A stretch of DNA of 64,000 bases, from the NCBI GenBank assembly GCA_017549505.1, contig JAFYUS010000043.1:1-64000 (forward strand), given 5' to 3'. Under the pieces are notes generated by a model that ran no database searches, was not told the origin of the DNA, and saw only the letters and a list, made by a program, of their open reading frames with translations. Numbering within the stretch: position 1 is the first letter of the stretch; each line of letters begins with the position of its first letter. This DNA is from Bacteroidales bacterium. GTDB taxonomy: Bacteria > Bacteroidota > Bacteroidia > Bacteroidales > UBA932. The translations under genes and the position numbers were made by a program. Positions 13,297-43,507 of the stretch are shown one piece after another.

Positions 13297-13400
13297 CGTG
13301 CGCCACAAATATCTAGCTATCTGAAACTTACGTTATTACCCTGCATTTCCATCTATGCAGGACAATCAGATATCTCATTATAAACCAATAACTTACACAG
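13297..13400. repeat. hairpin repeat copy A, at the 3' end of the RAYT gene
   Basis: The copy contains a perfect hairpin, CCTGCAT (13340-13346) with ATGCAGG (13355-13361), then GACAA, and ends in a segment like CAATAACTTACACAGC. Copies B (14533-14640) and C (15774-15840) share the order: CCTGC...GCAG, (G/A)ACAA, about 30 bp, then a CAA(T/C)AA(C/G)TTACA block. Its first 21 bases match copy B at 17 positions. The end overlaps the last codons of the RAYT gene. Confidence 0.55.
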
Positions 13401-14328
13401 CACGCACGATTTTCATATGGAGAAACTTGGATATCTGTATATGGCTTGCCTGCGTATATTTCCTCAGAATCGAAGCCACTTCCATCTTCTGCTCATCAGA
13501 CAACTGAGTTATCATTCTTACCGGGACAATTCCACATTGATTGCTTATAACGTTCAGAATATCATGATATATAGAATCTGAACCGGAATAATACTTTTCA
13601 CGAATATCGTAGTCTGCTCCAGAAGTCGATCTCATTGCATGTAACATCTCATCGGCACTTCCGTAAAATGACAGCAACAATTCCTTATCAAAAGGCCAAT
13701 AAATGTTTATTATATAATCAGTCAGCATTTCCTTTTCATCATTATTCAGATTATTCATAAGACGTCTTAACTGGGCATAAGACAGATAATGGTCAACATC
13801 ATGACATCGTCTGACCTCATGCACGGCCTTCCTGAGTCTTTCGCTACAACTGCTCAATGGTTTCTGAACAGAAAAAGGATGTCTGTCAAGAAGATATGCA
13901 AGAAAATTCCACCTGTATTCTTTAGCCTCACGACAAAGTGATTTTTCAACCGGATTATTGCCGATATACACTATTGCCGACCTTATCTTCTTGCTCCCTT
14001 TCTTAGGTGCACTTCCGAAACTTTTATGAAACAATGGTCCATGACGTCCCACACCAACATTATATTCCTTGACAAACAAGGAAGTATAATGTCGAATAAA
14101 TGCGCTTATCACTTCTAAAGAATCTGATAAAAGAAGAATATGTACATGATCAATCATCAGACATAGTTCCACCACCTTTAAAGCATATTGTTTAGCAACA
14201 ATAGAGAAAATTGTATAGAAAAGCAGAAAATCCTCCCTCTCATAAAAGATATTGAACCCATTTACTGTTCTTTGATACACATGCATGAATTCCCCTGAAA
14301 TAAACTTTCTTTTTCTGTATTTCGTCAT
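13393..14328 (-). CDS. REP-associated tyrosine transposase (Y1/HUH family)
   Basis: A 311-residue single-strand-specific HUH nuclease. The HUH motif is MIDHVHILLL (about residues 58-67); the catalytic Tyr lies in the helix IRHYTSLFVKEYN, followed by the family hallmark GRHGPLFHKSFGS and IVYIGNNPVEKSL. The N-terminal Y1 domain is about 165 residues, and a second helical domain follows, as is common in RAYTs of this phylum. RAYTs cut and join REP palindromes. It is a single gene with related hairpin repeats on both sides and no IS-like ends. Confidence 0.88.
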   Translation of the reverse strand: MTKYRKRKFISGEFMHVYQRTVNGFNIFYEREDFLLFYTIFSIVAKQYALKVVELCLMIDHVHILLLSDSLEVISAFIRHYTSLFVKEYNVGVGRHGPLFHKSFGSAPKKGSKKIRSAIVYIGNNPVEKSLCREAKEYRWNFLAYLLDRHPFSVQKPLSSCSERLRKAVHEVRRCHDVDHYLSYAQLRRLMNNLNNDEKEMLTDYIINIYWPFDKELLLSFYGSADEMLHAMRSTSGADYDIREKYYSGSDSIYHDILNVISNQCGIVPVRMITQLSDEQKMEVASILRKYTQASHIQISKFLHMKIVRAV

Positions 14329-14409
14329 ACTACTTCACATTAATGGTCAGACGTAAAGCGACAGATCGCCACTTGTTTCCACGAATGTAATAGGTATGTT
14401 TCCAAAACA

Positions 14410-14476
14410 TGATAAAAAAAAGAAAAATACATCGAATGTTTTTTATAATTCTGCTGTATTTTTCTTTTTTTTATCA
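14410..14476. repeat. perfect 21-bp inverted repeat upstream of the RAYT gene
   Basis: Bases 14410-14430 and 14456-14476 are exact inverted copies (TGAT, eight A, GAAAAATAC in the left arm) around a 25-base spacer. The block lies 82 bp upstream of the RAYT start in the gene-free stretch 14329-14642. It may be a RAYT substrate, a cruciform or a terminator-like hairpin. No open frame in this stretch looks real. Confidence 0.7.
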
Positions 14477-14532
14477 TTAAGCATATGAACCACGCCGAAA
14501 AATTTTTGCAGATCTGATAACTCCGCACGCAT

Positions 14533-42023: not shown

Positions 42024-42512
42024 ATGAAAAACAGATTATTTTCAACAATAGCAGCTATTTTCGTCATGGCATCATTTGCCGGCGGAAACGCATTTGCGCA
42101 GCCTGGCCCTCAGGAAGACTGGAAGGAGAAGATGCAGAGCGTAAAGATCGCATTCCTCACCACCGAGATCGGTCTCACACCTACCGAAGCCCAGGACTTC
42201 TGGCCGATATACAACTCAGTAAGCGAAGAGCTTGACAAGGCGATGCGCAGCACATTCTCCTCATACATGGAACTGGAGAAGGCAATAAACGAAAACAAGT
42301 CTGACAAGGAAGTGAGCAGATGCCTTGAAAGATATCTTGACGCGCTGTCAAGTCAGGACGAGATCCGAAGCGATTCCGTAGAGAAATACAGAAAGATCCT
42401 CCCGGACAGAAAGGTCGCAAAGATATTCGTGGCTGAAGAAAAATTCAGAAGACAGCATATCAGGATGCTGCAACACGGACACAGGCCGCCACAGGGTCAG
42501 GCGAACAAATAG
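42024..42512 (+). CDS. periplasmic CpxP/Spy-like protein
   Basis: A 162-residue exported helical protein. The signal peptide is MKNRLFSTIAAIFVMASFAGGNAFAQ. The motif IGLTPTEAQDFWPIYNSVSE resembles the LTxxQ block of CpxP/Spy proteins; the rest is charged amphipathic helix. It is likely the periplasmic stress sensor or chaperone of the sigma operon. Its last 16 bp overlap the end of trmN6 on the other strand. Confidence 0.83.
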   Translation: MKNRLFSTIAAIFVMASFAGGNAFAQPGPQEDWKEKMQSVKIAFLTTEIGLTPTEAQDFWPIYNSVSEELDKAMRSTFSSYMELEKAINENKSDKEVSRCLERYLDALSSQDEIRSDSVEKYRKILPDRKVAKIFVAEEKFRRQHIRMLQHGHRPPQGQANK

Positions 42513-43396
42513 AAATCTCGCATGAGGGAAAGATACTCTTCAGTATACTTTCCCTCATTCTGTATTGTAAGGACAGTATCTTCCGGGGTATCTATACGCG
42601 TCCTGGAAAACTCGGCGATTATCCTGGACGGCTCTTTTCTCGGCACGGTCCTCACACGTACGATACGGAAAAGATGAAGTCCGTTCATGCGGGCGTGGCG
42701 GCAGAGTGCTGCTTCCGTTTCTGCAGGCAACACGAAAGCTACACGGCCGTTATCGGTAAGACTTTGCGATGCAAAGTCAAGTATCTCTCTGTAAGACAGC
42801 CCTGTAGATGTATGGCGGGCATTGTTTCGTCTCTCCTCCGGGGCATTCAATGAATCTTCGAAGTAAGGAGGATTGGAGAATATCAGGTCGTATTTCCGGT
42901 CGCTGGCAAAATCATCCAATGAAGTATGATATGCATGAAGGACTTCCGACCATGGAGAATTCCTGAAGTTTGCCTCAGCCTCTTCTGCGGATGCTTCGTC
43001 TATGTCGATTGCATGAATTGTGATCTGAACGGCATCATCATGCACGGTCCGGCAGCCCGTCTGCCCGGCTTCGCAGGAACGTAGGGAAATGCTTCGCTCG
43101 GACAGACGGTCTGCCGGACCTTCGGACTCAGAAGAGTCCATTGTGGCATCTGCCATGCGGACCGCTCCGCAGAAAACAGGGTAGATGCTACGCTTGTCCG
43201 CATAGCAGATACCACATTGCGAGAAGCGCTGGGCGGCCATCAGGGCGATGGTGCCGGTGCCGGTGCCTATATCAAGGAGAGTGCGGTCTGTGGGAAGTAT
43301 GGTCATCAGGGCGCCCAGAAGGACACCGTCGGTGTTCACCTTCATGGCACTGCGCTCATTCACCACCTCAAATCTCTTGAACTTGAAAACTCCCAT
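42497..43396 (-). CDS. trmN6: tRNA1(Val) (adenine-37-N6)-methyltransferase with a palindromic in-frame insertion
   Basis: A 299-residue enzyme of the TrmN6 (YfiC) family, which normally has about 240 residues. Motif I, LLDIGTGTGTIALMAAQRF, is at about residues 40-58; motif IV, IFSNPPYFEDSL, is at about 172-183. Between motif I and the acidic strand HAIDIDEASAEEA lie about 60 extra residues (58-120), rich in Ser, Cys, Arg and Asp and unlike the family. They are coded by two tandem palindromic elements (43046-43216). The frame stays open, so the protein may still work. I use the ATG at 43396; an in-frame GTG lies at 43411. Confidence 0.88.
   Translation of the reverse strand: MGVFKFKRFEVVNERSAMKVNTDGVLLGALMTILPTDRTLLDIGTGTGTIALMAAQRFSQCGICYADKRSIYPVFCGAVRMADATMDSSESEGPADRLSERSISLRSCEAGQTGCRTVHDDAVQITIHAIDIDEASAEEAEANFRNSPWSEVLHAYHTSLDDFASDRKYDLIFSNPPYFEDSLNAPEERRNNARHTSTGLSYREILDFASQSLTDNGRVAFVLPAETEAALCRHARMNGLHLFRIVRVRTVPRKEPSRIIAEFSRTRIDTPEDTVLTIQNEGKYTEEYLSLMRDFYLFA
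43046..43120. repeat. 75-bp palindromic element P1 inside trmN6
   Basis: Arms 43046-43068 and 43098-43120 match as inverted repeats at 20 of 23 bases around a 29-base loop. The loop resembles that of P2, sharing CGCAG, AGGG, ATGCT and CGCT in order. The element is GC-rich. A small perfect hairpin, GGACTC-AGAA-GAGTCC, follows at 43124-43139. Confidence 0.8.
43142..43216. repeat. 75-bp palindromic element P2 inside trmN6
   Basis: Arms 43142-43162 and 43196-43216 match at 19 of 21 bases around a 33-base loop. It has the same length and loop sequence pattern as P1, but different arm sequences that still pair with each other, as expected if pairing itself is kept. Start points of P1 and P2 differ by 96 bp, a whole number of codons. 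Confidence 0.78.
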
Positions 43397-43507
43397 ATTT
43401 CCACAAAACACCTATTACTCTGATACACAATATATTAAGCACATAAAGGTCGGTAAAAATCACGACCTTAAGATAAGGAAATTATTAATATACAGACAGT
43501 TACGTGA

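Follow-up and report, generated by a model that had tools for sequence, protein, structure and literature searches.

The window, as we call the whole 64,000-nucleotide stretch of Bacteroidales DNA that was analyzed, contains a gene for a tRNA m6A methyltransferase-like protein that carries an in-frame insert composed of two palindromic elements, P1 and P2. The features at the locus are as follows.

42497..43396, minus strand: trmN6 (tRNA m6A methyltransferase-like), carrier of the insert; open reading frame 42497-43411; Pfam MTS domain, 2.6e-11
43046..43120, plus strand (antisense to trmN6): palindromic element P1; arms 43046-43067 and 43099-43120
43068..43100, plus strand: conserved apex of P1, defined by the seed alignment and by blastn apex matches elsewhere; its antisense reads ERSISLRSCEA in trmN6
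43142..43216, plus strand (orientation of P1): palindromic element P2; arms 43142-43161 and 43197-43216, 18/20 paired
43164..43196, plus strand: apex of P2, further from the consensus, defined by the seed alignment

The gene name is taken over from the preliminary description of this DNA. The minus-strand frame that runs from a GTG at 43411 to 42497 is free of stop codons across both P1 and P2, with the ATG at 43396 being a likelier start than the GTG. An alignment of the protein with those of 32 relatives (9 of 42 relatives' loci could not be parsed) places the insert after motif I, with the AQR helix on one side and the AIDIDE strand on the other. The segment between these landmarks has 69 residues here versus 4-41 in the 30 aligned relatives that have no match to the element family. 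The nearest solved relatives of TrmN6 in a profile alignment are 7wm6 and 7wm5, both of which have four residues fewer than the profile at this segment, while a single-sequence search for solved relatives gave no match. Judged from the profile alignment to these solved chains, the insert appears to sit at a loop position.

That the reading frame is open across the entire insert would also be expected if the 60 residues were an ordinary conserved TrmN6 domain with the palindromes as a by-product. We find this barely credible, as 24 of the 27 relatives' trmN6 loci searched with covariance model R1 (E<=1) have no unit, and the same DNA occurs elsewhere between genes and, in other proteins, in other reading frames. 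These 24 loci are also the insert-free relatives that the preliminary description had proposed to look for. The three loci with units belong to G227 (RGIG1649), G225 and G233. The trmN6 gene of G227, a close relative, has five cores, four of them within a 54-bp tandem array of 3.7 copies, and those of G225 and G233 have a single R1 match apiece. With the two units of the window, the core count across species is 0, 1, 2 or 5, and units have multiplied in tandem. The same site in L140 (G224), L142 (G234), L143 (G231) and L141 (G232) bears other repeat-like peptides, either PGQAGDD repeats or VILNEVKNL, which raises the possibility that unrelated repeats use this site for landing.

A repeat finder at default settings reported only P1, with arms of 22 nt that are 91% complementary. 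When aligned, P2 pairs in the register of P1, and each has 18 of its innermost 20 arm positions paired. Searching the genome by blastn with the P1-P2 stretch matched the apex at ten other places with E <= 0.004 and at one further place with E of 0.18. P1, P2 and these 11 places share a pairing register in a gap-free alignment of 81 columns, in which standard pairs make up 89.4% of the paired positions versus 66.7% upon shuffling and at most 45.7% with the partners slid. The number of cells that are changed on both sides is 92 versus 27 in the control. The preliminary description had portrayed P1 and P2 as homologous palindromes inserted in frame, with a conserved apex and with arms that differ yet still match. 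The open frame and the shared pairing register bear out the first part, and the proportion of standard pairs together with the excess of two-sided changes bears out the second. P1 and P2 are among the 13 seeds of R1, so their R1 scores are not independent, and the independent support for their family membership is the set of blastn apex matches. The general layout of an element is a conserved apex of ~35 nt, which in the consensus reads roughly TCGCTTCGCAGAAGCATAGGNAAATGCTTCGCTCG, flanked by two arms of 18-25 bp. The inner arms are often like CCCCGGATGTGG and the outer arms are variable. A differently paired apex is present in L072, L073, L076 and L077, and L074 has lost its apex. P1 and P2 belong to a family of such palindromes, ~75 bp in length, that is confined to one lineage and is dispersed and patchy in its occurrence.

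A covariance-model search for further copies of P1 and P2, as suggested in the preliminary description, was productive. Of the 679 first-look candidates in the window's genome, 150 were scored, and R1 matches at least 35 places at E<=1, including 23 with E<1e-11. At least 14 of 200 genomes of the same genus, which we take to be Cryptobacteroides, have matches at E<=1e-3 (own genome included; 23 candidates scored per genome). The three richest have at least 23, 22 and 17 matches and the remaining ones 1-5. With strict filters R1 matched none of 60 other relatives at 1e-6, and among 294 other genomes of the order there were no matches at 1e-5 with 15 candidates scored per genome. An exact apex pattern was found in 28 stretches from 13 metagenome-assembled genomes (MAGs; all named genomes compared here are MAGs) titled Bacteroidales bacterium, with a ruminant host named for 11 of the 13, and R1 detects 1-21 copies in every one of these 13 at 1e-3. 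The same pattern has no match in viral contigs, hence no phage carrier is seen, and Rfam holds no family for these elements. A second model, R2, was seeded with eight GC-rich copies, most of them coding, and matches at least 8 of the 200 same-genus genomes at 1e-4, including 16 places in G086 and 17 in G097. R2 also finds again members of the first set in the window's genome, P1 and a dnaX unit among them. An alignment that mixed the two length classes was out of register, so no model was built from it.

Several local observations accompany this survey. Four family matches lie within 1.4 kb in SIG153 (L126:125-1532). Copies L223 and L224 of G186 have a longer right flank in common (GGTGGAACACAGACACACCCGACGAAA), as if they belonged to a larger repeated module. 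A coding subfamily in G156 and G100 (L242, L245, L246, L259, L275, L280, L240) encodes APSVAxKKADAPSG or something close to it in several enzymes. L066 (G000:C13:1-2512) is identical over 2,512 bases, from the first base onward, to L104 on a contig of MAG RGIG7207, and the L066 contig may represent a strain shared with RGIG7207 or be misbinned in the window's assembly.

The genomic positions of the elements were analyzed for 137 copies with flanks in hand, namely 30 of the 35 matches in this genome and selected copies of ten relatives, a set that includes orthologues so that the copies are not independent. A whole-ORF codon test, with a threshold picked by the analyst and supplemented by Pfam-named hosts, places 38 of the 137 inside scored ORFs, with L264, L278, L267 and L234 among the weak members of these assignments. 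This test replaced a strict local codon-usage test under which 11 of the 137 copies counted as coding and both trmN6 and dnaX were missed. Pfam-confirmed hosts are trmN6, dnaX, rsmH/mraW, cysS, murB, a hisD-hisC fusion and a DPPIV-like S9 peptidase, and murE, murC, ileS, purH, fmt and an ABC-F gene look like further hosts. The coding copies are a minority and occupy linkers or loops of housekeeping proteins. For example, the insert lies between the two domains of the hisD-hisC fusion and between the catalytic and DALR domains of cysS. The element has the orientation of the gene in 24 of the 38 and the opposite orientation in 14, and several reading frames are in use. A stop codon is missing from five of the six frames in which the consensus apex can be read, so both insertions and inversions should often be tolerated in frame.

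The remaining 99 copies lie outside scored ORFs. Both neighboring genes were called for 62 of these (37 were not classed), and the two neighbors are convergent for 43 of the 62, co-directional for 18 and divergent for 1. The distance from the element to the facing stop codon (n=121) is 8-20 nt in 50 cases and <=30 nt in 71, and the 4-mer that occurs most often at the 3' end of the stem is TTTT. In many non-ORF copies a stop codon is closely followed by the hairpin and a T tract; this does not apply to the coding copies. Intergenic copies thus probably act as bidirectional intrinsic terminators, as far as their sequence and placement indicate. These same features raise the possibility that the hairpin itself is selected, as a bidirectional terminator between genes and in some RNA role inside genes, with single changes being compensated afterward. 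Such stepwise compensation accounts well for the intergenic copies. It is also in keeping with the situation at the L059 site, which is occupied by the element in three relatives and by a plain hairpin in L111 (G229). As a general explanation we nonetheless regard selection of the hairpin as rather doubtful, given that coding copies, in which the hairpin is translated and has no evident use as a terminator, pair equally well. In a best-of-scan over 18 arm positions, coding copies have a mean of 16.2 paired and the other copies 16.3. The mean for all 137 copies is 16.3, versus 10.7 (largest 14) for neighboring stretches and 10.6 (largest 14) for shuffles. Copies from G186 pair less well, with a mean of 13.1 of 18 and with bulges in several of them.

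How the arms change together can be followed by comparing elements that occupy the same site in different species. In 22 such pairings at 16 sites, 60 changes are mirrored, 32 are one-sided, 11 are of the wobble type and 9 are unpaired double ones. A further four pairings (L063/L201, L056/L204, L068/L083, L050/L173), which bring the total to 19 sites, add 18 mirrored, 6 one-sided, 1 wobble and 2 unpaired double changes. Over all 26 pairings, which were chosen by hand rather than sampled and are not independent, mirrored changes outnumber wobble ones by 78 to 12. Stepwise compensation does have these 12 wobble cells on its side, but the ratio argues against it. Same-site status was defined by flanking BLAST, except for L127/L122, L112/L125, L121/L085, hisDC and L220/L222, for which shared edges or a shared gene were used. 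At sites with poor flank alignments (L061/L113, L050/L173 and the right flank of L062), we relied on the BLAST flanks and on the elements themselves. In trmN6, 3 mirrored changes and 2 one-sided ones separate P1 from the matching G227 unit. The corresponding counts are 7 and 2 between P2 and its G227 counterpart, and 8 and 2, with 1 unpaired change, between P2 and the G225 unit. The dnaX pair has 5 mirrored and 2 one-sided changes, and among intergenic sites the counts are 3 and 0 for L048/L192 and 7 and 1 for L067/L195. In 12 pairings, 15-20 of 17-20 positions are paired when an arm is set against its own partner, compared with 8-16 when it is set against the arm of the other species.

Not every site follows this trend. 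One-sided changes exceed mirrored ones in DPPIV (5 versus 3), L121/L085 (5 versus 0), L119/L116 (3 versus 1), L059/L116 (2 versus 1), L062/L198 (2 versus 0) and L056/L204 (4 versus 3), as well as in L127/L122 and L112/L125 (each 1 versus 0). An A.C mismatch in CGTCAGTGG/CCACCGACG persists across L059, L119 and L116. Near-identical cores in G186 have outer arms that differ, mostly in step (CGCACCCAGG/CCTGGGTGCG, CGCAAACCGG/CCGGTTTGCG), and one G186 copy combines a left arm of one type with a right arm of another. Left outside the sums are L060/L123, L061/L113, L066/L179 and L074/L106/L182, whose arms are too different to align (L074 also lacks its apex).

The apex itself changes orientation. 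It is inverted between species at 4 of the 19 shared sites, these being rsmH (L086/L087; G086 versus G097) and three sites between genes (L048, L062 and L067). At the rsmH site the arms differ, one-sidedly, at a single position, and both apex orientations are in frame, so that the apex is read as SFAETREYALS in one species and as ERAYSLVSANE in the other. A protein-level alignment of cysS from G100 and G156 suggests a further inversion. Apex inversion is not predicted if the hairpin is maintained by selection.

Taking these observations together, we think it probable, from sequence and the comparison of MAGs, that the elements are mobile palindromes whose arms are kept matched mainly by template switching during replication. 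We prefer template switching because coding copies are equally well paired, wobble steps are few and apices invert, and at least inside genes it fits better than selection for the fold. A trans-acting enzyme would spread the copies, and template switching inside the palindrome would then copy one arm onto the other and homogenize them, and would invert the apex when the switch goes to the opposite strand. Purifying selection would remove those insertions and inversions that are not tolerated, and at intergenic copies a terminator role would add selection for the hairpin. More tentatively, the amino acids of the insert may well be set by this DNA-level maintenance of the hairpin, in which template switching rewrites the arms together and flips the apex, rather than by selection on protein or RNA. 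Processes of this type have been described. According to the available portions of the respective reports, template switching homogenizes the arms of inverted repeats and inverts their spacers, coding DNA included (PMC8604942), and it creates and maintains hairpins (PMC8794818). Those cases concern yeast genes and RNA genes, whereas here a dispersed bacterial repeat family is involved. Counting against template switching are the lasting mismatches, the bulges and the mixed-type copy of G186, and the pairs rich in one-sided changes. As to the selection for the fold that the preliminary description had read from the covarying arms, terminator-shaped intergenic copies speak for it, while the equally paired coding copies, the few wobbles and the apex inversions speak against it, at least inside genes.

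At L061/L113, L060/L123 and L074/L106/L182 the arms are unalignable, and for this reason re-insertion or arm capture fits better there than template switching. Arm identity is 0.47 at the first of these sites and 0.44 at the second. Such sites could mean that the apex alone is mobile and that arms are captured or made with each insertion, through entry of the apex into a pre-existing hairpin at its tip or through inverted copying of the flank. A conserved apex with arms that differ widely among copies is what this would produce, and inner arms are indeed more alike than outer ones. We nevertheless judge it unlikely, since arms are shared by copies at different sites (ACACCnnACCCCGGATGTGG types, CAAGCCTGCTGTGG in three MAGs, and the G186 copies) and only a few mirrored steps separate the arms at several shared sites. 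The sharing of arms among sites indicates that it is whole elements that seem to move. Besides the SIG153 cluster of four matches, RGIG4555 (L120) and RGIG4217 (L123) also contain CAAGCCTGCTGTGG, or an arm close to it, at other places.

In-frame palindromes as such are already known, both as Rickettsia palindromic elements (RPEs) and as intragenic REPs. RPEs are short repeated palindromes that occupy in-frame positions in unrelated genes, often ones with housekeeping roles (PMC10969869, from its available text). The preliminary description had drawn this parallel, and it holds insofar as the present elements are likewise inserted in frame in unrelated genes. Set against descriptions of RPEs, the elements reported here are ~75 rather than ~150 bp in length, belong to a different phylum with Bacteroidales rather than Rickettsia or its kin as hosts, combine variable arms with a conserved apex and have this apex inverted at some shared coding sites. 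They also differ from MITEs, which have conserved terminal inverted repeats, as their outer arms vary among copies. SPRITE is a dispersed terminator-shaped repeat with an 18-bp stem that is enriched near gene 3' ends (PMC3049150), and is similar to the present family in being dispersed, terminator-shaped and near gene 3' ends. In the available part of PMC3049150 it is described by one sequence profile and in-frame insertions go unmentioned, whereas in-frame copies occur here. Additionally, perfect coding palindromes are reported in worm mitochondria in the accessible text of PMC6649704. Among open-licence papers we found no description of the present family, or of arm turnover or apex inversion in such elements.

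Compensatory change is usually taken as proof of a selected RNA fold. Matched arms inside coding genes, together with inversions of the spacer, constitute natural replicates in which selection and replication-driven copying of arms become separable in bacteria. The in-frame insertion of palindromes, best known in Rickettsia, recurs in uncultured gut Bacteroidales, where it has reached core genes such as rsmH, cysS, dnaX and murB. If our interpretation is true, then a single site can encode peptides from either DNA strand, as do the two apex peptides of rsmH.

The final issue concerns what moves these elements. GTAG/CGTC REPs are small palindromes that in the genomes described mostly lie next to convergent genes, <20 bp from their 3' ends; some intragenic REPs encode 20-30 residues, and CGTC-tagged palindrome families are known from Bacteroidetes (all from the available sections of PMC3733652). 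The earlier statement that no such coding element is known to be described in Bacteroidota is consequently to be narrowed: it stands for the present family, for which no description was found, but not for palindromes generally, given the CGTC families. The present elements differ from these REPs in being longer, in having variable arms, in having no clear tag at the stem end and in not being tracked by the type of RAYT present in the window. At distances of up to 6 nt from the ends of the 137 copies, GTAG occurs 7 times, CTAC 6, CGTC 9 and GACG 20 versus an expectation of ~10 each at equal base frequencies, with GACG being somewhat above this value and the other three not. The preliminary description had proposed that the RAYT encoded at 13393-14328 moves the elements, which would make them REP-type. 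The gene does have a Y1 transposase domain in Pfam, and relatives at 44-61% identity are present in 9 of 15 other carrier genomes searched. Presence of the gene does not track the family across carriers, however, as G186 (22 copies), G225 (15) and G226 (12) have no relative, and G227 (21 copies), G229 (12) and G233 (16) have matches of <=28% identity only, whereas ten genomes without an R1 match have a relative at 31-52%. The gene is also flanked by no family copy, and the absence of a clear GTAG or CGTC tag is a further point against it. We therefore consider mobilization by this RAYT very improbable. Neither a mover nor a target-site duplication was found in our comparisons, the cysS linkers being too divergent between species to define insertion points. 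Just upstream of the RAYT-like gene, positions 14409-14477 of the window hold an inverted repeat whose 23-bp arms match perfectly around a spacer of 23 nt. We rejected this repeat as a family member, its spacer being unconvincing and R1 not finding it. Its arms contain AAAAAAAAGAAAAA.
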